This document shows positions 5,686 to 55,893 of a DNA stretch of 64,000 bases, piece after piece; within the stretch, counting starts at the first letter, position 1; each line of letters starts with the position of its first letter. The stretch spans positions 3,782,001 to 3,846,000 of the forward strand of contig KB899087.1 of the NCBI GenBank assembly GCA_000378025.1. Reading direction: 5' to 3'. The notes beneath the pieces were generated by a model that made no database searches, had not been told where the DNA came from, and worked only from the letters and a program-made list of their open reading frames with translations. This DNA is from Xanthobacteraceae bacterium 501b (lineage in GTDB: Bacteria; Pseudomonadota; Alphaproteobacteria; Rhizobiales; Xanthobacteraceae). A program made the position numbers and the translations under genes.

Positions 5686-6450
5686 ATGGGACGTCTTGAG
5701 GGCAAGGTCGCGCTGATCGCCGGCGCCAGTTCCGGCATCGGCCGGGCCGCTGCGGTGCTGTTCGCCCGTGAGGGCGCGAGGCTGGTGCTCGGGGCCCGCC
5801 GCCAAGGCGAGCTGGACGCGCTGGCGGCGGAGATTGCCGCCGAGGGCGGCGCAGCGGCTGTGCTCGCCGGCGATGTGCGCGAGGAGGAGTATGATCGGGC
5901 GCTCGCGGCATTGGCGGCGGAGCGGTTTGGCCGGCTCGACATCGCCGTGAACAATGCCGGCACGCTCGGCGAGAAGGGACCCAGCACCGAGATTTCGGCC
6001 AAGGGCTGGGAGGATACGCTGGCGGTGAACCTCACGGGCTCCTTCCTCGGCGCCAAGCACCAGATCGCGCAGATGCTGAAGACCGGCGCGGGCTCGGTGA
6101 TCTTCACGTCGACCTTCGTCGGCTACACGGCAGCCTTTCCCGGCCTCGCCGCCTATGCCGCCTCGAAATCCGGACTGGTCGGCCTTACCCAGGCGCTCGC
6201 CGCCGAGTTCGGCCCGAAGGGCATCCGGGTGAACGCCATCCTGCCCGGCGCGGTGGAGACCGAGATGTACCGGGAAGCGAACGACACGCCGGAGGCACAG
6301 GCCTTCGTCACGGGGCTGCACGCCCTGAAACGCGTGGCCGCGCCGGAAGAACTGGCCCGCTCGGTGCTCTATCTCGCCTCCGACGACTCGTCCTTCGTGT
6401 CCGGCACCGCGCATCTCGTCGATGGCGGGCTGTCGATCAACCGGAGCTGA
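5686..6450 (+). CDS. SDR-family NAD(P)-dependent oxidoreductase
   Basis: Classical short-chain dehydrogenase/reductase, 254 aa. The coenzyme-binding Gly motif GASSGIG is at residues 13-19 and NNAG near residue 89. The catalytic triad is Ser142, Tyr157 and Lys161 (YAASK). The C-terminal SSFVSGTAHLVDGG is typical of 3-oxoacyl-ACP reductase and glucose dehydrogenase relatives; the substrate cannot be told. The start at 5686 is chosen because GAGGAG lies 8 bases upstream; the frame remains open to 5587 but without a conserved extension. It is divergent from the LysR gene, which is probably its regulator. Confidence 0.9.
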   Translation: MGRLEGKVALIAGASSGIGRAAAVLFAREGARLVLGARRQGELDALAAEIAAEGGAAAVLAGDVREEEYDRALAALAAERFGRLDIAVNNAGTLGEKGPSTEISAKGWEDTLAVNLTGSFLGAKHQIAQMLKTGAGSVIFTSTFVGYTAAFPGLAAYAASKSGLVGLTQALAAEFGPKGIRVNAILPGAVETEMYREANDTPEAQAFVTGLHALKRVAAPEELARSVLYLASDDSSFVSGTAHLVDGGLSINRS

Positions 6451-6538
6451 GCCGGCGTGGCAGATTCGCCTGCCCTCTAACCCCCAGCTAGAGAACACGT
6501 AACCGATCGGCTTGCGATGCAAGCTGATCGGCGCGCGC

Positions 6539-7240
6539 TCAATGTGCGCGGGCGAACATCTCGTTGAAGGAATAGCCGGAACCGCGCACGGTGCGGATCG
6601 GGTCGGGCTGGCGGGGGCGGTTGAGCGCCTTGCGCAGCCGGCCGACATGCACGTCGACCGTGCGCTCGTCGATATAGACGTCCTGCCCCCACACGCCGTC
6701 GAGCAGCTGCTCGCGCGAATAGACGCGGCCCGGCGACTGCATGAGGAATTCCAGCAGCCGGAACTCGGTGGGGCCGAGATGCAGCTCGCGGCCGGCGCGG
6801 TGCACGCGCTTGGTCTCGCGGTCGAGCTCGATGTCGCCGGCCCGCAGCAAGGTGGAGATGTGCTCGGGCTTGGCCCGGCGCAGCAGCGCCCGCACCCGGG
6901 CGACAAGCTCGGGCACCGAGAAGGGCTTCACCACATAGTCGTCCGCGCCGGTGGCGAGGCCGCGCACGCGCTCGGTCTCCTCGCCGCGGGCGGTGAGCAT
7001 GAGGATGGGCATGCGCTCGGTTTCCGGCCGGGCCCGCAGGCGCCGGCACAGCTCGATGCCGGAAAGGCCCGGCAGCATCCAGTCGAGGATCAGAAGGTCC
7101 GGCACGCTTTCGCGCAGCCTTGTCTCCGCCTCGTCGCCCCGCCCGACATTATCGACCGAATAGCCTTCGGATTCGAGATTGTAGCGGAGCAGGAGGGTGA
7201 GGGGCTCCTCATCCTCCACGATCAGTATGTTGGTGGGCAT
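6539..7240 (-). CDS. phoB: Phosphate regulon response regulator PhoB
   Basis: OmpR-type response regulator that activates phosphate-starvation genes by binding PHO boxes, 233 aa. The receiver domain has acidic residues EDEE at 9-12, phospho-acceptor Asp53 (LILDWMLPG) and the VVKPFS lysine. The C-terminal winged helix includes LGPTEFRLLEFLM and the recognition-helix segment DERTVDVHVGRLRKAL characteristic of PhoB. The ATG at 7240 gives the normal length, although the frame is open further upstream. It is the last gene of the minus-strand phoR-pstSCAB-phoU-phoB series, 35 bp after phoU. Confidence 0.96.
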   Translation of the reverse strand: MPTNILIVEDEEPLTLLLRYNLESEGYSVDNVGRGDEAETRLRESVPDLLILDWMLPGLSGIELCRRLRARPETERMPILMLTARGEETERVRGLATGADDYVVKPFSVPELVARVRALLRRAKPEHISTLLRAGDIELDRETKRVHRAGRELHLGPTEFRLLEFLMQSPGRVYSREQLLDGVWGQDVYIDERTVDVHVGRLRKALNRPRQPDPIRTVRGSGYSFNEMFARAH

Positions 7241-7275
7241 GATCTTGATCCCGAGCGTTCGCGGGCCGTGGGGTG

Positions 7276-7989
7276 TCAGGCCGGGAACGCGACGCTGGTC
7301 AGGCTGCTGGTGTCCTGCTTGGGCCGCTCTTCGGTGAGGAGCTGGCCGGTCACAAGATAATGGATGGTTTCCGCGACATTGGTGGCATGGTCGCCGATAC
7401 GCTCGATGTTCTTGGCGCAGAACAGCAGATGCGTGCACAGCGAGATGTTGCGCGGATCTTCCATCATATAGGTGAGCAGTTCGCGGAACAGCGAGGTGTA
7501 GAGCACGTCGACCTCGCCGTCGCGCTGCCAGACTTCCAGCGCCCGCACCTCGTCGCGGGTGGCATAGGCGTCCAGCACCACTTTCAACTGTTCGAGCACG
7601 ATGTTGGACATGTGCTCGACGCCGCGCACCAGCTTCTGCGGGTGGAACTCGCCGGTGAGGGCGAGCACGCGCTTGGCGGTGTTCTTGGCGAGGTCGCCGA
7701 TGCGCTCCAGATCATTGGCGATCCGCATGGCGGCGACGATCTCGCGCAGGTCGCCAGCCAGCGGCTGGCGGCGGGCGATGATGAGCACCGCCTTTTCCTC
7801 GATCTCCCGCTGCAGCAGATCGACCGGGCCGTCGAGCACGATCACCTTCTGGGCGAGCTCGCTGTCGCGCTTGACCAGCGCCTGGACGCTGTCGGCGACG
7901 AGACGCTCGGACTGGCCGCCCATCTCCACCACACTGCGGCCGAGTTCCTTTAGGTCGGTGTCGAACGACGAGACGATATGTTCGGTCAT
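7276..7989 (-). CDS. phoU: Phosphate signalling protein PhoU
   Basis: PhoU links the Pst transporter to PhoR and keeps the Pho regulon off when phosphate is plentiful. The 237-aa protein is all-helical and consists of two repeated PhoU domains. Metal-binding type motifs occur in each half (ERIGDLAKNTAKR and ERIGDHATNVAE), which is diagnostic. The ATG at 7989 has AGAGAGG upstream; the frame extends to 8058 but overlaps pstB. It sits between pstB and phoB. Confidence 0.96.
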   Translation of the reverse strand: MTEHIVSSFDTDLKELGRSVVEMGGQSERLVADSVQALVKRDSELAQKVIVLDGPVDLLQREIEEKAVLIIARRQPLAGDLREIVAAMRIANDLERIGDLAKNTAKRVLALTGEFHPQKLVRGVEHMSNIVLEQLKVVLDAYATRDEVRALEVWQRDGEVDVLYTSLFRELLTYMMEDPRNISLCTHLLFCAKNIERIGDHATNVAETIHYLVTGQLLTEERPKQDTSSLTSVAFPA

Positions 7990-8014
7990 GGGGCAGGCCT
8001 CTCTCGTCGCGGGC

Positions 8015-8836
8015 TCAGCCGAAGCGGCCGGTGATATAGTCGCGGGTGCGGGCTTCACGCGGGTTGGTGAAGATCTCGTTCGAGGCGGCGACCTCGATCA
8101 GTTCGCCGAGATAGAAGAACGAGGTGATGTCGGCGCAGCGCGCCGCCTGCTGCATGTTGTGCGTCACGATGACGATGGTGAATTCCTGCTTCAGTTCGTC
8201 GATCAGGTCTTCGATCTTCGAGGTCGAGATCGGGTCGAGCGCCGAGGTGGGCTCGTCGAGCAGGATCACTTCCGGCCGCACCGCGATGGTGCGGGCGATG
8301 CACAGGCGCTGCTGCTGGCCGCCGGAGAGGCCGAGCGCCGAGGTGTGCAGCCGGTCCTTGGCTTCTTCCCAGATCGCCGCCTTGCGCAGGCACCACTCGA
8401 CGCGCTCGTCCATCTGCGCCTTGGAAAGGCGCTCATGCAGGCGCACGCCGAAGGCGATGTTGTCATAGATCGACATCGGGAACGGGGTCGGCTTCTGGAA
8501 CACCATGCCGATGCGCGAGCGCACGACGGTGGAATCCAGGTCCTTGCTCAGCAGGTCGGCGCCGTCGAACAGGATCTTCCCTTCCGCGCGCTGGCCCGGA
8601 TAGAGCTGATACATGCGGTTGAAGATGCGCAGCAGCGTGGACTTGCCGCAGCCCGAGGGCCCGATCATCGCGGTGACGCGCTTTTCCGGGATCTCGAAAT
8701 TGATGTTCTTCAGCGCGTGGTTGTCGCCGTAGAAGAAATTGAGCTTCTCGACCTTGAGCTTGGACTCGGCCGAGGGCGCGGTGGCGCGGTTGACGGCGGA
8801 GGCGATGTCGATCGACGTCTCGGGTGCGAAATTCAT
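8015..8836 (-). CDS. pstB: Phosphate ABC transporter ATP-binding protein PstB
   Basis: ATPase of the high-affinity phosphate importer, 273 aa. The Walker A motif GPSGCGKST is at residues 59-67, with a Q-loop, the ABC signature LSGGQQQR, Walker [13 protein letters not shown] and the switch His in VTHNMQQA. The C-terminus ([11 protein letters not shown]) is the conserved PstB ending. The ATG at 8836 follows GAGACGGA. A GTG at 8848 that overlaps the pstA stop by 4 bases is the alternative start and would add four residues. The protein acts at the inner membrane with PstA and PstC. Confidence 0.96.
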
Positions 8837-8844
8837 GGTCCGTC

Positions 8845-9678
8845 TCACTTCATCTTCGCCAGGACGAGGCGGGAAAGGATGTTCAGGGTGAGAACCCCGA
8901 CGGTGATGATGAGGGCGCCCGCCCAGGCCAGGGCGACCCAGTCCTCGAAGGGGCTGGCAGCGTATTGATAGATGGCGATCGGCAGGCTCGCCATGGGGGC
9001 GTCGAGGCTGAGCGACCAGCCATTATTGCCGAGCGAGGTGAACAGCAGCGGCGCGGTCTCGCCGGCGGCGCGGGCGATGGCCAGCAGGATGCCGGTGACG
9101 ATGCCGGCCCGGCCGGCGCGCCAGGTAATGAAGGTCACGACCTTCCACTGCGGCGCGCCGAGCGCGAAGGCGGCTTCGCGCAGGCCGATCGGCACCAGGT
9201 TCAGCATGTCCTCGGTGGTGCGAACCACCACGGGGATGATGATGATCGCCAGGGCGATGGAACCGGCCCAGCCGGAGAAGCCGCCGAAGGGCACGACCAG
9301 GAGCTGGTAGACGAACAGGCCGATGAGGATCGACGGGGCGGAGAGCAGCACGTCATTGACGAAGCGCACCGCATTGCCGACCTGCGTCCCGCGGCCGTTC
9401 TCGGCCAGGAAGGTGCCGCACATCAGGCCGATCGGGGTGCCGATGATCAGCGCGACGCCGATCTGGATCAGCGAGCCGACAATGGCGTTGAGCAGGCCAC
9501 CGCCGGCGCCGGGCGGCGCGGTGATGTGGGTGAAGACATGCGGCCCGAGCGCGGGCAGGCCGCGCGCCACCAGGGTCCACAGGATCCAGGCGAGCAGGAC
9601 CAGCGAGAGCGCGGCGAAACCGACGCTGATCGCCTTGACGGTGTAGTCGGTCGCGCGACGGCGGGCGAGGGATGCCAT
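8845..9678 (-). CDS. pstA: Phosphate ABC transporter permease PstA
   Basis: Inner-membrane permease subunit of the Pst phosphate importer, 277 aa with about six transmembrane segments. The BPD-type EAA loop ([19 protein letters not shown]) and the conserved [11 protein letters not shown] segment are present. The ATG at 9678 has GGAG 7 bases upstream. A GTG at 9690, directly after the pstC stop, is possible but lacks a good ribosome site. Its position between pstC and pstB supports the call. Confidence 0.95.
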
Positions 9679-9690
9679 GTGTGTCTCCAC

Positions 9691-10668
9691 TCAGCCCTTG
9701 AGCCGGGACCGGACGAGCAGGCGCGAGAGCGCGAGCACGATGAACGAAATCACGAACAGGATGAAGCCCAGTTCCAGCAGCGCCTGCAGCTTCAGCGAGC
9801 CGATCGAGGCCTCGGGAAACTCGTTGGCGATGGTGGAGGCGATGGTGGCGCCCGGGGCGAACAGCGAGGCCGACATGCGGGTGGCATTGCCGATGACGAA
9901 GGTCACGGCCATGGTCTCACCCAGCGCGCGGCCGAGGCCGAGCATGATGGCGCCGACCATGGCTGTGCGGCCATAGGGCACCGAGACGTTGCGGTAGACC
10001 TCATAGGTGGTGGCGCCGACGCCATAGGCCGATTCCTTGATCATCGGCGGCACCGATTCCAGCACCTCGACGAACATGGCGGTGATGAAGGGCAGGATCA
10101 TGATCGCCATGATCAGGCCGGCGGTGAGCATGCCCGCGCCGAGCGGCGGGCCCTGGAACAACGCGCCGATGATCGGCAGCGGCCCGAGCCATTCGATCAG
10201 CGGCGGCTGCACATAGGCGGCCATCAGCGGCACGACGATGAAGAAGCCCCACATGCCGTAGATGATCGACGGGATCGCGGCGAGCAGCTGGATCGCGACG
10301 CCGATCGGCCGGCGCAGCGGGCCGGGGGCGATCTCGGTGAGGAAGAAGGCGATGCCGAAGGACAGCGGCAGGGCGATGATGACGGCGATCACGGCGCTGA
10401 AGACGGTGCCGAACACCATCACGCCGGCGCCGAACACTTCCGTTACCGGGTTCCACGTCGTCGACCAGATGAAGGACAGGCCGAATTCCTGAATCGCCGG
10501 CAGGCCGCCCTCGAACAGCATGGCGATGATGAGGCCGAGCAGCAGCAGAACGACAATGCCGCTGGTCCATAGAATGCCGACAAAGATCGGGTCGCTGACG
10601 CGGCCGGTCGGCTTGCGCGCGGCGATCAGGCCGGTGCCCGCCTGCCTTCCGCTGAGAGTGGCATCCAT
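9691..10668 (-). CDS. pstC: Phosphate ABC transporter permease PstC
   Basis: Second permease of the Pst importer, 325 aa. The first transmembrane helix is near residues 30-50, followed by a periplasmic loop beginning FIWSTTWNPV, a hallmark of PstC. The membrane core contains the LAAIPSIIYGMWG segment and the EAA loop (ESAYGVGATTYEVYRNVSVP). The ATG at 10668 is preceded by a weak GGA. It lies 186 bp downstream of pstS; that gap contains a hairpin that may reduce read-through from the abundant pstS message. Confidence 0.95.
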   Translation of the reverse strand: MDATLSGRQAGTGLIAARKPTGRVSDPIFVGILWTSGIVVLLLLGLIIAMLFEGGLPAIQEFGLSFIWSTTWNPVTEVFGAGVMVFGTVFSAVIAVIIALPLSFGIAFFLTEIAPGPLRRPIGVAIQLLAAIPSIIYGMWGFFIVVPLMAAYVQPPLIEWLGPLPIIGALFQGPPLGAGMLTAGLIMAIMILPFITAMFVEVLESVPPMIKESAYGVGATTYEVYRNVSVPYGRTAMVGAIMLGLGRALGETMAVTFVIGNATRMSASLFAPGATIASTIANEFPEASIGSLKLQALLELGFILFVISFIVLALSRLLVRSRLKG

Positions 10669-10784
10669 GTCGTGTAATCCTTGGAGCGCCTTGTCACCCG
10701 AAAGCCGCGATCGGCCTGAGGGGCGGCGTGCTGTGACGGAGCGTGGGCGTCGCGGGCGTTAGGGGCAGACTACAATTGGCTGAG

Positions 10785-10834
10785 CCGGACGAGAAGAGGC
10801 GGCCGGACGAGAAGAGGCGGCCGGACGGCCGCCT
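10785..10834 (-). terminator. Hairpin with 18-bp tandem duplication between pstS and pstC
   Basis: A perfect 8-bp stem (10815-10822 with 10827-10834, loop GGAC) lies 20 bp after the pstS stop. It adjoins two perfect 18-bp direct repeats, 10785-10802 and 10803-10820, whose start (CCGGAC) recurs once more at 10821. On the minus strand the hairpin is followed by CTTCTCG, a poor U-tract, so it may attenuate or stabilise pstS mRNA more than stop transcription. Confidence 0.5.
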
Positions 10835-10854
10835 CCTCCCCCTGCAGGGCAGGA

Positions 10855-11895
10855 TCAGTTGGTCCAGACGGCCTTGCCGTCGGCCTTGACTTCGCTGGCC
10901 CAGGCCTTGCGCACTTCGTCCGCAACCGCGTCGGGGAGCGGGATGTAGTGCAGCTTCTCGGCGATGGCGTCGCCTTCGGCGCTGTAGGCCCAGTTGAAGA
11001 ACTTGATGGCCTCGGCCGACTGCGTGGCGTTGGTCGGGTTCTTCGGCAGCAGGATGTAGGTGGCCGAGGTGATCGGCCAGGCGCCTTCGCCAGCGGTGTC
11101 GACCATCGAGGCGGCGAAGTTCTTCGCGCCCTTCCAGTCGGCGGCGGCGGCCGCTTCCATGAAGCTCTTGGTCTCGGGCTTCACGACCTTGCCGGCCTTG
11201 TTCACGAGGTCGGTGGTGGCGAGCTTGTTGGCGGCGGCGTAGATGAACTCGACGTAGCCGATCGCGCCCTTGGTGTTCTTCACGGTGCCGGCAACGCCTT
11301 CATTGCCCTTGGCGCCCGCGCCGACCGGCCACTGGACGGAGGTCGCGGCGCCGACGCCGGACTTCCAATCGGCGCTGGCGGAAGCGAGGTAGGAGGTGAA
11401 CACGAAGGAGGTGCCCGACGAGTCCGAACGGTAGACCGGGACGATGGCGATGTCGGGAAGCTTGGCGCTCTTGTTCAGGGCGGCGATCTTCGGGTCGTTC
11501 CACTTGGTGATCTTGCCCTGGTAGATCTCGGCAATGATCTCGCCATTGAGGGTCAGCGCGTGGTCTTCGCCGAGATTGACGATGGCCACGACCGAACCGA
11601 TCACGGTCGGGAACTGGAGCAGGTTGGCGGATTCGAGCTTGTCGTCCTTCATCGGCGCGTCGGAGGCGCCGAAATCGACGGTGCGGTTGACGATCTGGTT
11701 CTGGCCACCGCCGGAACCGATCGACTGATAGTTCAGGCCCGTGCCGGTCTTTTCCTTATAGGCGGCAGCCCAGGCCTGGTAGACCGGCGCCGGGAAAGAG
11801 GCACCGGCGCCATTGATGTCAGCGGCGAAGGCGGCGCCCGAAAACACGGCGCCGAACGACAGCGCCGCGGCGCCAAGCAGATGGGTGAATTTCAA
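10855..11895 (-). CDS. pstS: Periplasmic phosphate-binding protein PstS
   Basis: Phosphate-capturing component of the Pst importer, 346 aa. A signal peptide of about 24 residues ends AAFA|ADI. The mature protein opens with GAGASFPAPVYQAW and has the phosphate-binding loops YQSIGSGGGQ, DFGASDAPM and SDSSGTSFVFTSYL. The start codon is TTG: AAGGAG lies 7 bases before TTG-AAA-TTC and no better ATG exists. It is the first gene after a triple PHO box and probably opens the pst transcription unit, separate from phoR. Confidence 0.96.
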   Translation of the reverse strand: MKFTHLLGAAALSFGAVFSGAAFAADINGAGASFPAPVYQAWAAAYKEKTGTGLNYQSIGSGGGQNQIVNRTVDFGASDAPMKDDKLESANLLQFPTVIGSVVAIVNLGEDHALTLNGEIIAEIYQGKITKWNDPKIAALNKSAKLPDIAIVPVYRSDSSGTSFVFTSYLASASADWKSGVGAATSVQWPVGAGAKGNEGVAGTVKNTKGAIGYVEFIYAAANKLATTDLVNKAGKVVKPETKSFMEAAAAADWKGAKNFAASMVDTAGEGAWPITSATYILLPKNPTNATQSAEAIKFFNWAYSAEGDAIAEKLHYIPLPDAVADEVRKAWASEVKADGKAVWTN

Positions 11896-51778: not shown

Positions 51779-53485
51779 TCAATCGGCCTTCTCGGCCTGC
51801 TTCTTCAGCGCGGCGCCGAGGATGTCGCCGAGCGAGGCACCGGAATCCTGCGAGCCGAACTGGGCCACGGCTTCCTTTTCCTCGGCGATTTCCAGCGCCT
51901 TGATCGAGACCTGCACCTTGCGCGCCTTGCGGTCGAACAGGGTGACGCGGGCGTCGAACTTCTCGCCGACGGCGAAGCGGTCCGGACGCTGGTCGCCGCG
52001 GTCGCGGGCCAGTTCCGAGCGCTTGACGAAGGCGGTCATGTCAGAGCCGATGATCTTCACATCGACGCCGCCATCCTTCACGTCGATCACTTCGCAGGTG
52101 ACGATCGCGCCCTTGCGCAGTTCGCCAGCATCCTGGAAGGGGTCGCCGCCAAGCTGCTTCACGCCGAGCGAGATGCGCTCCTTCTCGACATCCACGTCGA
52201 GAACGACCGCCTTGATCATGTCGCCCTTCTTGAACTCCTCGATCACCTGCTCGCCGGGACGGTTCCAGTCGAGATCCGACAGGTGGACCATGCCGTCGAC
52301 GTCGCCGTCGAGGCCCAGGAACAGGCCGAACTCGGTCTTGTTCTTGACCTCGCCCTCGACCACCGCGCCGGCCGGATACTTCTCGGCGAAGGCGTCCCAG
52401 GGGTTCTGCAGCGTCTGCTTGAGGCCGAGCGAGATGCGGCGCTTGACCGGATCCACCTCGAGGATCGCCACTTCCACTTCCTGCGAAGTGGCGACGATCT
52501 TGCCGGGGTGGACGTTCTTCTTGGTCCAGCTCATCTCGGAGACGTGGATCAGGCCTTCGATGCCCGGCTCCAGTTCCACGAACGCGCCGTAGTCGGTGAT
52601 GTTGGTGACGCGACCCTTGAAGCGGGCCTCGACCGGGTACTTGGCCTCGATGCCCTCCCACGGATCGCCGAGCAGCTGCTTCATGCCGAGCGAGATGCGG
52701 TGGGTCTCGTGGTTGATCTTGATGATCTTCACCTTGACCGTCTGGCCGATGGAGAGCACCTCGGTCGGGTGGTTCACGCGGCGCCAGGCGATGTCGGTGA
52801 CATGCAGCAGGCCGTCAATGCCGCCGAGATCAACGAACGCACCGTAATCGGTGATGTTCTTGACCACGCCGTCGATGACCTGACCCTCTTCGAGGTTCTG
52901 CACCAGCTCGTGACGCTGCTCGGCGCGGGTCTCTTCGAGAACCGTGCGGCGCGAGACGACGATGTTGCCGCGGCGGCGATCCATCTTGAGGATCTGGAAG
53001 GGCTGCGGGTTGTGCATCAGCGGGCCGACATCGCGGATCGGGCGAATGTCCACCTGGGAGCGCGGCAGGAACGCCACGGCGCCGTCGAGGTCGACGGTGA
53101 AGCCGCCCTTGACCTGGTTGAAGATCACGCCGGTGACCTTCTCGGTGGCGTTGAACGCCTTCTCGAGGCGGACCCAGCTCTCTTCGCGGCGGGCCTTGTC
53201 GCGCGACAGCACGGCTTCGCCCAGCGCGTTCTCGACGCGCTCGAGATAGACCTCGACCTCGTCGCCGACCTTGATTTCCTGGTCGCGGCCGGGGCCGGCA
53301 AATTCCTTCAGTGCCACGCGGCCTTCGGTCTTCAGGCCGATATCGATGATCGCGAGATCCTTCTCGATCGCGACGACGATACCCTTGACGACTGAACCTT
53401 CGGCGAGCTCCGATTCACCGAAGCTCTCTTCGAGCATGGCAGCGAAATCGTCACGAGCGGCGGCAAGCGTTTGAGTAGCGGACAT
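51779..53485 (-). CDS. rpsA: 30S ribosomal protein S1
   Basis: mRNA-binding ribosomal protein of 568 aa built of six S1 domains. Repeats such as [22 protein letters not shown] and [23 protein letters not shown] (each quoted block lies around residues 210-330) are evident. The ATG at 53485 follows AAGGAG by 7 bases. The Asp/Lys C-terminus is short. In relatives rpsA directly follows aroA-cmk; here 3.7 kb with four other genes separate cmk from rpsA. Confidence 0.97.
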
Positions 53486-53873
53486 AGATGCTCCTTGCCA
53501 GGATCTGCGCCGGATTGGGTTGAATGAGCCTCTTCCTCCACGGGCGCCGGGACTGGCAGGCCCGGCGCTGTCCACCCGCAAAGGCGAACCCGGCGCGCTG
53601 GCCGTGAGGGACAAGGCTTTGAAAACGCCACGCCACGCTGCCCGGGCGCGGCCCCCTAGAGGGAGCCGTCACGCATGGGCACGCGGTACTGTCCGGGGCA
53701 CGCCGCGAGGCAGGATCGGAGGACTGGCCTCCAAGCACGGAGAGCGCGCATCCCGCGCCCCCGGCCCTCCCGATTGACCGCCTCGATTAAGTGGTGGCCC
53801 GGACAAGCGCGTGCAATAGCGCAAGGGGAGGGGAAGGGCAAGGGTGGGGGGCTACGCTATTCTCTTCGGCGAT
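53486..53873. other. Interval between the caspase-like gene and rpsA
   Basis: 388 bp upstream of rpsA that should contain its promoter and leader. The sequence returns from A+T-rich to G+C-rich at about 53870. No further gene, repeat family or recognisable leader RNA was seen. A polypurine run (AAGGGGAGGGGAAGGG) occurs near 53820-53840. Confidence 0.6.
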
Positions 53874-55307
53874 CTATTCGGCTTCCTTTGACAGCCGATC
53901 AGCAATGCTCGCAATATGAGCCAGAACGTCTTCCTCGATTTTATTCGCGATATTGGCGATTTTCGGTGCTAGGTCTGCACTCCAACTGAATTTGTACCAG
54001 CGGCGCGTCAGCTCGGCTCCGGCGTCGGCAAATGCATCCCATCTTGTTCGAGGGTGACGCGTGGACAGTTCAAACAAGTAGCAATTTTCAAGACTCGGCG
54101 CGCATGTAATAGCCAATATTATTTGCTGAAGTGACATGTAACGGGGAATAAACTTGATTTTCTGCTGAACTCTGCCAACTGGAAGATTGATTTCTAGCGT
54201 TATTTTTTCCTCTTTATCGCGATGAGGCGCCATTCCCGCGGCCAGTCTTGTGATTTCGCTAAATGATAATGCAAGCTCTGTACTAGAAATATCCGCCGTT
54301 ACAAATTCATCTAAACGCTTTTCGCTTCTAAGGACTCTGGCTACGAACGTTTTGGCAGAGTCCTCCAAATAGTCATCGTGTTCTACAAATTCTATATCAT
54401 AGTAATCTTCCAAGTTACTACTGGATAATTGATCCTTTATCTCATCAAATATATATGATATTACATTTTCTACCCTCTCTTTATTAGCTAAACGCGATTC
54501 GTATTTCGCTAGAATGGATGATGTGTTTTGACCGCCTTCTAGCTCGCTTTCGGCTTCATTTCTTAAATCGTCAGATGTAATCGATTTCGATATCCACTTC
54601 GAATCAAAAATATCTTTGAATTTAATCAAGCAACTTGCTTCTTCAACAAAAGTTTCGCGCGCAGATGCCTGAAGAACGAAATGCGGGGCTCTTTCATCAT
54701 TAGATAAATATTGATCTTTCAGCGCAGAAATAATATCCAAATAATATATCGGTCCAGATGTCGAGCGTGTGGCCGCAATGCAAAATCTCTCCGTGAACTC
54801 TCTCAATGGTTCGCCCATGAGAGAAGTTTCTGATTCTTGACACGATGCTATTTGAATTATATTCTTTATAGTTCCTTTGTTGTTATTTATAAATTCTCTG
54901 TATCCTTTTATAAAAGGTGTACCAGAATTACATGCGTCTATTATCATTACAGTTGTAGTTGGAGAAATGTCTCGAATTACTGTAGTTAGTTCAGAATGAG
55001 ACAATCCAGTTTCATTAGGGTGAATTTCATTAAAATCGTAGCAGCAAAAATAAAATTCTTGCCCGTTACTAAATCCATGTCCAGAAAAGTAAAAAAGAAC
55101 TTCATTAATTTCTGATTGATTTGAAAGCAGATTCCTTAATGTCATCTTCAAGTCGGTGGAATTGACATCTTTCAGGCGATGGACCTTCGAATAACGGCCT
55201 GTCGCTACAATCAATTCGCCAATGGCGTCGACGTCCGCATTGCATGAGGGCAACGGATTTAGAAGTTTATATTCCGAATTACCAACGAGTATCGCCACCG
55301 ATGACAT
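53874..55307 (-). CDS. Caspase-like cysteine protease (peptidase C14 family), A+T-rich
   Basis: A 477-aa protein. The first 230 residues are a caspase/metacaspase domain: VAILVGNSEY at the start, catalytic His77 in YFSGHGFSNG and catalytic Cys126 in MIIDACNSG, with the surrounding beta-strand pattern. The remaining 250 residues match nothing I recognise; they are helical, acidic in the middle and end in an amphipathic helix. There is no signal peptide or membrane segment. Base composition is unlike everything around it: 19 of 60 bases are G or C at 54361-54420. Bacterial caspase-like genes often belong to immune or programmed-death systems, but no partner gene is adjacent, so that role is only a hypothesis. 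GGAGG lies 12 bases before the ATG. Confidence 0.88.
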   Translation of the reverse strand: MSSVAILVGNSEYKLLNPLPSCNADVDAIGELIVATGRYSKVHRLKDVNSTDLKMTLRNLLSNQSEINEVLFYFSGHGFSNGQEFYFCCYDFNEIHPNETGLSHSELTTVIRDISPTTTVMIIDACNSGTPFIKGYREFINNNKGTIKNIIQIASCQESETSLMGEPLREFTERFCIAATRSTSGPIYYLDIISALKDQYLSNDERAPHFVLQASARETFVEEASCLIKFKDIFDSKWISKSITSDDLRNEAESELEGGQNTSSILAKYESRLANKERVENVISYIFDEIKDQLSSSNLEDYYDIEFVEHDDYLEDSAKTFVARVLRSEKRLDEFVTADISSTELALSFSEITRLAAGMAPHRDKEEKITLEINLPVGRVQQKIKFIPRYMSLQQIILAITCAPSLENCYLFELSTRHPRTRWDAFADAGAELTRRWYKFSWSADLAPKIANIANKIEEDVLAHIASIADRLSKEAE

Positions 55308-55335
55308 GATTATCGAAATCCTCCGCTATTATCTT

Positions 55336-55364
55336 AGAATAGACAGATAAAAGAACGTTATCAA
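55336..55364 (-). promoter_or_regulatory. Predicted promoter of the caspase-like gene
   Basis: Minus-strand TTGATA (55364-55359), 17 bases, then TATTCT (55341-55336): near-consensus -35 and -10 boxes at optimal spacing, about 30 bases before the start codon. Confidence 0.6.
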
Positions 55365-55375
55365 TTCTGAATTGA
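55361..55375. promoter_or_regulatory. Perfect palindrome overlapping the caspase -35 box
   Basis: TCAATTC-T-GAATTGA is a perfect 7-bp inverted repeat with a single central base. It overlaps the predicted -35 hexamer, the position expected for a repressor operator. No regulator gene is adjacent. Confidence 0.55.
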
Positions 55376-55435
55376 CATCAACGACCTCTCGCCGGTGCCG
55401 GGCGCCGGCGCCAAGGCGCGAGCCCCGGGAACTCC

Positions 55436-55529
55436 GTCATCCCGGCCGCAGCCGAAGGCGGAGAGCCGGGATCGTCCACCAGAATAGGGAGGCGATCCCG
55501 GACAGGACCTGCGGTCCTTCCGGTATGAC
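55436..55529. repeat. Palindromic intergenic repeat, family B copy 2
   Basis: GTCATCCCGGCCG ... GCCGGGATCG, a 19-base centre, CGATCCCGGAC ... CCGGTATGAC. In reverse orientation it aligns with 44021-44116. It lies 61 bp from the palindrome upstream of the caspase-like gene. Confidence 0.8.
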
Positions 55530-55608
55530 GTCGGCGGAAACGTTTTCAAGCAGGCTCTCGGCAGGATGCGACCGTCGCGCTCCGGCCCCTCGCCCCGACA
55601 ATCGCCCC

Positions 55609-55893
55609 TCACCGTCTCCCCGCCCGCACCACCGCCGCCACGCCCAGCAGGATGAGGCCGGTGCACACGCCGCTGGCGATGACGGCGGCGGGGGTCATGC
55701 GGGCGCCGCCGGCAAGGCTCAGCGGGCCGAGGCGCACCTCATAGGCGGCCTTCATCTCCTCAGGATGCGTCGGGGGCGCGGCCAACCAGTCGAGCGCGGG
55801 GGTGGCGTTGCCACCCGCCACGCGAGCGGCGGCGCCCGGCGCGGGGGCGGTGTCCGGCATGGTGGCGCGGGATAAGGCGGGAACGGGCGGCAT
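55609..55893 (-). CDS. Small membrane protein of unknown function
   Basis: A 94-aa protein with an Ala/Pro-rich N-terminal half and a single C-terminal transmembrane helix (AVIASGVCTGLILLGVAAVV) ending in Arg residues. It resembles a CbtB or cobalt-transport-associated small protein only in size; no family was recognised. GGAG lies 7 bases before the ATG at 55893; an ATG at 55860 is in frame. It lies 102 bp after cobF on the same strand. Confidence 0.6.
   Translation of the reverse strand: MPPVPALSRATMPDTAPAPGAAARVAGGNATPALDWLAAPPTHPEEMKAAYEVRLGPLSLAGGARMTPAAVIASGVCTGLILLGVAAVVRAGRR

Follow-up and report, generated by a model that had tools for sequence, protein, structure and literature searches.

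Immune systems of bacteria in which a caspase works together with partner genes include type IV Thoeris, Canu and subtype III-E CRISPR, as described in the literature. Gasdermin/CARD and NLR-related caspase systems are also named in PMC12799240. Type IV Thoeris, attributed to Rousset et al. 2025 (as cited in PMC12847820 and PMC12799240), combines a TIR protein with a caspase-like protease that is activated by N7-cADPR, and the TIR and effector genes of the systems described there are encoded in one operon (PMC12847820). The Canu prototype consists of three genes, coding for a caspase, CanB and a gated nuclease, and its caspase carries a C-terminal Ig-like fold (PMC12799240). In EACC1 systems, up to 50 alternative C-terminal domains have been described (PMC7159879). 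The hotspots of P2/P4 phage satellites are small loci of high turnover, about 1-5 kb long and with many defence genes, that lie between two conserved genes (PMC9122126).

The caspase-like gene presented here is located in the window, a stretch of DNA of 64 kb analysed over its whole length, and it departs from the EACC1, Canu and type IV Thoeris systems in at least one tested defining feature of each. With Canu it would share an anti-phage protease of the caspase fold, and both protease domains resemble that of the paracaspase MALT1 (here by sequence profile). By contrast with the three-gene Canu prototype of PMC12799240, the window gene is alone, its neighbours are conserved housekeeping genes and no neighbour recurs in its family; where the Canu caspase has its Ig-like fold, sequence searches of Pfam and the PDB point to no Ig family. 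The open-access literature yielded no solitary caspase of such build and no rpsA-linked defence spot. The original prediction of an undescribed system is thus fair with respect to that literature, Pfam, NCBIfam and PADLOC, the type IV Thoeris protease being set apart by description only. The features of the locus are as follows.

53874..55307, minus strand: caspase-like protease gene of 477 aa (ORF with ATG start, stop codon included)
54636..55307, minus strand: Peptidase_C14 protease domain, residues 1-224 (p20/p10-like, our naming), with a Pfam match over residues 4-164 and strong family conservation to about residue 220
53877..54635, minus strand: family-specific C-terminal domain, residues 225-477, without known relative
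55233..55235, minus strand: codon of Asp25 (55 of 55 rows), which aligns with the S1-pocket residue Asp365 of MALT1
55077..55079, minus strand: codon of the catalytic His77, from the sequence, 55 of 55 family rows
54936..54938, minus strand: codon of Asp124 (55 of 55 rows), which aligns with the S1-pocket residue Asp462 of MALT1
54930..54932, minus strand: codon of the catalytic Cys126, from the sequence, 55 of 55 family rows
55320..55324, minus strand: ribosome-binding-like GGAGG, 12 nt before the caspase ATG, read from the sequence
55336..55364, minus strand: sigma-70-like promoter TTGATA-17-TATTCT upstream of the caspase gene, from the promoter scan
55609..55893, minus strand: small conserved ORF (94 aa) that anchors the cargo spot on the left in the nearer relatives
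51779..53485, minus strand: rpsA (ribosomal protein S1), start chosen at MSATQ, right-hand anchor of the cargo spot
53780..53851, no strand: conserved tract on the rpsA side, where similarity to 9 relatives ends at 53849-53852, with different sequence beyond

The G+C content of the caspase gene is 0.403 versus 0.678 for the window, and no 1434-nt stretch outside the gene falls below 0.614. It is also the only ORF of at least 200 aa in the 64-kb window with both GC and GC3 below 0.52. These figures bear out the A+T-rich composition that had been claimed for the gene, exemplified by the 19 G or C among the 60 bases at 54361-54420. Accidental base composition was ruled out by the same window-wide comparison of GC and GC3, and the ORF is not a chance one, because its protein aligns end to end with a family. 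The four sigma-70-like sites found in the caspase region are no excess over chance (2.7 +/- 1.7 in shuffles). On one side, the caspase gene is flanked by what we read, from the translation, as rpsA; the other side has the small conserved ORF and genes that we read in the same way as CobF-like, cmk and aroA. The neighbours are housekeeping genes conserved in relatives, as proposed earlier, to which it can be added that the site is a genus-wide cargo spot and not an ordinary housekeeping junction.

The N-terminal part (residues 4-164) is assigned by Pfam to Peptidase_C14 (PF00656) with 53.2 bits, the cut-off being 21.4, and an E of 4.3e-14. The His77/Cys126 dyad had been described as intact, and both residues are indeed seen in the window protein and in all 55 aligned rows of its family, this alignment being made of the window protein and 54 further rows, with plasmid copies and two near-copies omitted. 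A PDB search with the family profile retrieved metacaspase-9, another metacaspase and then the MALT1 paracaspase, all through the protease part only, and with the window protein alone MALT1 was found at E 0.1-0.4, below non-caspase top matches. These weak top matches (eIF3a, E about 0.01) were rejected as PDB relatives of the window protein. HMMER aligns Asp25 and Asp124 with two aspartates of MALT1, 99 positions apart, which by our own count of the numbering appear to be the Asp365 and Asp462 that PMC4357240 includes among the S1-pocket residues of MALT1. The acidic S1 pocket of MALT1 consists of three residues; these two are matched in the caspase family and the third, Glu500, was not placed. 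According to PMC4357240, metacaspases and paracaspases prefer Arg/Lys at P1 and caspases prefer Asp. On the basis of this rule and of the two conserved aspartates, we predict cleavage after Arg or Lys for the window protease.

Caspase domains as such are widespread. A match to the query was obtained in 93 of the 297 genomes of the order, and among the matches listed nearly all concern the protease part only. Beyond the gene itself, two of those listed extend well into the C-terminal half (genomes G033 and G193). The PADLOC 'caspase' model PDLC02987, which matches 51 of the 55 family rows, covers residues 5-183 only of the window protein (model positions 5-158 of 453), so that no defence model spans the whole protein.

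The C-terminal 250 residues, in which no family had been recognized at the outset, match no credible Pfam, NCBIfam or PADLOC model and no PDB chain with E below 0.09. When this part was searched as a family profile, the best PDB match (E 0.095) was judged to be due to chance, and the same holds for the Pfam searches with the C-terminal part of single members, where seven families were each found in one member at E 0.02-0.04 and none was common. Besides NF047832, which is discussed below, NCBIfam searches with the 55 rows returned a chlamydial porin model in 5 of them (best E 3.9e-5) and four further models that each match one member (best 5.4e-4). All of these matches fall on rows other than the window protein and are probably chance resemblances. 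Within the domain, Phe335 is kept in 50 of the 55 rows and Trp423 in 51. The C-terminal part is less conserved than the N-terminal part in 1485 of 1485 pairs, with median identities of 16% versus 37%, a faster divergence that would suit, without proving, a domain under arms-race selection, for instance one that senses phage parts. Although the plasmid copies were kept out of the C-terminal profile, it recovers them (L033 at 2.7e-51, L034 at 1.5e-46, L032 at 1.1e-42 and L035 at 4e-19), a recovery that is only partly independent because those copies sat in the seven-sequence alignment that found the other members.

The family comprises at least 60 distinct full-length proteins of 438-572 residues, encoded by bacterial genomes, plasmids and predicted viral contigs. 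Members with a named organism belong to at least six phyla: Pseudomonadota, Nitrospinota, Bacteroidota, Bacillota, Cyanobacteriota and Spirochaetota. It was built with a seven-sequence alignment from the best 80 of 217 confirmed places in bacterial genomes and from 24 viral-contig matches; viral contigs were searched deliberately, and the viral share of the family is not a frequency. A single-sequence scan of bacterial genome contigs gave no match in the same collection that yielded the family with the seven-sequence alignment, and 50,697 phage records contained no match to the window protein or to the protein of viral contig L162. The 60-member set excludes copies that are fragmentary, broken or short (L084, L089, L100, L111, L113, L126, L128, L129, L131 and L174, with L111 being a broken copy in Helicobacter), matches below 200 bits, five identical duplicates and the full-length copy of G033 (L046), which a filter on strand took out because it is on the minus strand. 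This G033 relative adjoins genes for a cytosine methyltransferase and a Vsr-like protein (names read from the ORFs). Plasmids also harbor full-length copies, and two of these plasmids measure 4.9 and 6.5 kb.

The distribution of the gene is patchy. Within the genus, it is present in one of 30 genomes, that of the window itself; G312 and G313 give only weak matches, to the caspase domain and elsewhere in the genome. The corresponding stretches of 29 relatives gave no match to the gene at E 1e-5, so that the outcome named beforehand as refuting, homologues at this locus in most relatives, did not occur. The C-terminal profile is found in one of 296 sampled genomes of the taxonomic family and in two of 398 of the phylum, the window's own genome being counted; these sets are samples, and two Bradyrhizobium genomes found with the seven-sequence alignment also carry the domain. 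In a tree of 61 rows, the window protein groups with proteins from Caulobacter, Sphingomonas, a Paracoccaceae, two Bradyrhizobium and a viral contig (100/91), followed outward by a Minwuiaceae protein (100/97) and then a Nitrospinota protein (98/77). This mixed grouping is consistent with transfer, and paralogy or binning error may also explain it. The horizontal acquisition put forward in the original prediction is supported by the single occurrence among the 30 genus genomes, the sparse C-terminal domain and relatives scattered over phyla, plasmids and viral contigs.

The gene is also solitary. Three predicted ORFs of at least 80 aa were taken on each side of the 60 family loci and clustered (329 ORFs, a size limit at which shorter partners would be missed); here, as in the genus spot described below, neighbours are longest-ORF picks and not curated genes. 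No neighbour of this size recurs in more than two unrelated loci, in agreement with a self-contained protease. The clusters of three or four loci correspond to structural genes of viruses read as P2-like (L162, L166, L167, L168 and L171) and to near-identical Lachnospiraceae loci, and all remaining clusters are pairs of loci. A toxin-antitoxin pair and a conserved operon were rejected, no recurrent partner of at least 80 aa being present. For the nearest neighbours, 104 of 118 proteins were considered, the 14 omitted being from P2-like loci, from near-identical loci or, for two of them, short ORFs. Among the 25 of 105 families listed, no defence family dominates: resolvases account for 5 of the 104, phage integrases for 3, PemK toxins and Uma2 for 2 each, and an HpaII endonuclease and a cytosine methylase for 1 each. 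In 59 of the 60 loci the caspase gene is A+T-richer than the rest of its own locus, the exception being an A+T-rich Paraclostridium plasmid. In viral contigs L162, L168 and L171, read as P2-like, it lies between tail-completion and baseplate-spike genes (about 6400-11500), and PHROGs tail-completion, tail-terminator, spanin, baseplate and spike families surround it, with three members each.

The position of the gene is best seen by comparison with its genus, in which cmk was found in 30 of 30 genomes. The cmk-rpsA stretch was compared in 29 relatives, one of which (L062) was dropped as its contig ends before rpsA, leaving 28. The gap before rpsA ranges from 0.37 to 4.9 kb among relatives. An A+T-rich ORF of at least 200 aa occupies the spot in 14 of the 28; the other 14 are without one, so that the site is often free of such cargo. 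Within the same cmk-rpsA stretches, 18 ORFs of this type are found in 71.6 kb inside the spot versus none in 202.8 kb outside. This interval, from the cobF side to rpsA (53849-55609 in the window, loci L048-L076 in the relatives), thus serves the genus as a cargo hotspot. Pfam and PADLOC scans covered 17 of the 18 cargo ORFs, all but L060:5521-6540, and 11 of the 14 occupied spots match PADLOC models of known and candidate systems at E<=1e-3, several of them modestly and to candidate models. As a background, none of the three other ORFs of the spot that were tested, three only (EAL, GGDEF-EAL and transposase), gave a match. By Pfam and PADLOC, the cargo of the occupied spots is as follows.

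L058: CBASS cyclase (5e-144) and Cap15-type effector (2e-85)
L064: dCTP deaminase, dCTPase model (5e-163)
L060 and L069: GmrSD/NsnA (4e-58 and 1e-32), in L069 also with a HEPN protein
L053: AAA ATPase, PDC-S59 (2e-40)
L051: DUF3800, PDC-M04A (1.5e-31)
L050 and L055: HEC-07 twice (2e-12 and 2e-9)
L059: SIR2 with a STAND-like region, ThsA-type SIR2 (2e-9)
L057: TIR-type effector (8e-9)
L072: RelA/SpoT protein, PDC-S33 (5e-8), and an unmatched 341-aa ORF
L048, L052 and L054: no PADLOC match (DUF3800, a 510-aa ORF and a GHKL-like ATPase, respectively)

Cargo may have been swapped at this spot by recombination in the conserved flanks. Site-specific integration was considered and rejected, as there are no direct end repeats and no integrase among the spot ORFs. 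On the rpsA side, the edge at 53849-53852 abuts a putative rpsA promoter, TTGCCC-17-TATTGC on the rpsA strand (read by eye, the promoter scan not having reported it), so that selection on the promoter may explain the edge better than an att site. Like the P2/P4 hotspots of PMC9122126, the spot is a small, defence-rich locus between conserved genes, and some relatives of the caspase are found in P2-like viral contigs. The window spot differs from them in being chromosomal, beside rpsA, and the place of the caspase in the P2-like contigs, between the tail-completion and baseplate-spike genes, also differs from the cos-adjacent hotspot described in that article.

Position and distribution support a defence role, and an immune role, as originally suggested, is backed by the defence-type occupants of the same site and by carriage on plasmids and viral contigs. 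We consider it likely that the window gene encodes a single-gene anti-phage (anti-mobile-element) protease, with a C-terminal sensor and inhibitor and an N-terminal executioner predicted to be specific for Arg/Lys. As it is a solitary caspase at a site where relatives often carry anti-virus genes, it is probably a stand-alone, virus-triggered switch for death or shut-down. The N-terminal 224 residues would be a caspase-fold cysteine protease of the metacaspase/paracaspase type, to judge from His77/Cys126 and the probable acidic S1 pocket. The fast-evolving C-terminal 250 residues would hold this protease off and recognize a signal of infection, most likely a phage protein or damage caused by the phage. 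Once triggered, the protease would be released to cut host or phage proteins, and the infected cell would die or stop growing before phage release. The gene would have moved as one unit before coming to lie in the genus-wide cargo spot in front of rpsA. It would act much as the caspase does in type IV Thoeris or in Canu, without a TIR operon or partner genes. The dyad, the two-domain family, the solitude, the patchy distribution and the hotspot are observed; the defence function itself, the specificity for Arg/Lys, the trigger, the substrate, autoinhibition by the C-terminal domain and the outcome, whether death or dormancy, are steps that we infer.

Several other roles have to be weighed against this one. 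Toxins, transposon cargo and metabolic morons are likewise found among A+T-rich mobile single genes, which is a point against the defence reading. The gene could encode a toxin-like protease, or one that maintains a plasmid or prophage by addiction or competition, with no specific anti-phage role. This is unlikely in our view, since no neighbour of at least 80 aa recurs (smaller antitoxins would escape this search) and since the window genome carries it on the chromosome, at a place that defence genes often occupy in relatives. In its favour are the solitude and mobility of the gene and its presence on very small plasmids, as well as its state in E. coli, where matches occur in 174 of 5426 genomes, for the most part on plasmids; at least 80% of the gene is retained in 3 of these 174, and less in the other 171. 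In 37 of the 40 E. coli rows listed only the last 37% of the gene is covered, and one record that was examined has IS2 directly before the remnant. A cellular protease for stress or proteostasis, orthocaspase-like and gained by transfer, with no immune role, appears very unlikely. Roles in cell death, stress or photosynthesis have been suggested for caspase homologues of other bacteria, but a C-terminal domain present in one of 296 genomes of the taxonomic family, carriage by mobile elements and a hotspot position argue against such a function here.

The remaining alternatives assign the protein to a described two-component system. It might be the effector half of a TIR-caspase pair of the type IV Thoeris kind, with the TIR protein encoded elsewhere in the genome and the C-terminal domain binding a cyclic ADP-ribose messenger, which seems to us quite unlikely, though not to the degree of a stress protease. 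A TIR protein with an N7-cADPR-activated caspase-like protease as executioner of anti-phage immunity is known (PMC12847820), and by analogy the window protease could play the same part, its C-terminal domain of about 250 aa serving as a ligand pocket. The only TIR_2 match of the genome (G000, contig 1, 933633-933953) is 2.9 Mb from the caspase, so that a dispersed pair is conceivable. However, TIR and effector share an operon in the systems of PMC12847820, whereas the window spot holds one cargo gene. Moreover, 33 of the 54 genomes or records that carry the family, some of them fragments, have no match at E 0.001 to TIR_2, the one TIR family searched; by the coordinates listed, a TIR gene within 8 kb seems to occur only at L115, about 5.5 kb away with genes between (assuming that contig numbers follow record order), and no neighbour gene recurs in the family loci. 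An EACC1-associated caspase, as part of a two-gene membrane conflict system, is hardly credible, despite a common build of N-terminal caspase domain and additional C-terminal region. The best NCBIfam match is NF047832 ('caspase_w_EACC1'), which fits every one of the 55 family rows (best E 6.6e-23), but the window protein reaches 68.3 bits against a cut-off of 140. The upstream 94-aa ORF seems, from its translation, to hold one hydrophobic helix, like EACC1 proteins, but it is also present in relatives without the caspase. The family has one fixed C-terminal domain and not the up to 50 alternatives of PMC7159879. PF19953 (EACC1) has no match in the genome, a result that is weak because the control genomes likewise gave none.

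The single-gene protease can be placed in a broader frame, which we advance tentatively, as possible rather than likely: a trans-phylum caspase that would be initiator and executioner in one, its C-terminal domain sensing the virus directly and unleashing an Arg/Lys-specific death protease, with no second messenger, nuclease, gasdermin or CRISPR partner, and spreading as a one-gene module via prophages, plasmids and the rpsA-side spot. If this is true, sensing and killing would be joined in one chain in at least six phyla, which would be among the simplest forms of caspase immunity, and the family would allow the origin of caspase death switches to be tested directly. The spot next to rpsA is in addition a practical source of candidates, as 3 of its 14 A+T-rich cargo spots (L048, L052 and L054) have no PADLOC match.

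A few minor observations concern the spot and the family. In the gap of L057, L059, L060, L063, L066-L068, L070, L072 and L073, a G+C-rich ORF of about 520-700 aa is found, sometimes beside A+T-rich cargo; those tested, from L057 and L067, are an EAL and a GGDEF-EAL protein. At L050:3878-6551, the HEC-07-like gene appears to be split, with a DDE transposase ORF between its parts, by comparison only with the longer single ORF of L055. The E. coli plasmid copies (L034 and L186-L188) lie near a gene for a single-stranded DNA-binding protein. Finally, a dispersed palindromic element with arms CGTCATCCCGG ... CCGGTATGACG is located at 55434-55531, just upstream of the caspase gene, and similar sequence occurs in L049, L050, L051, L053, L057 and L070.
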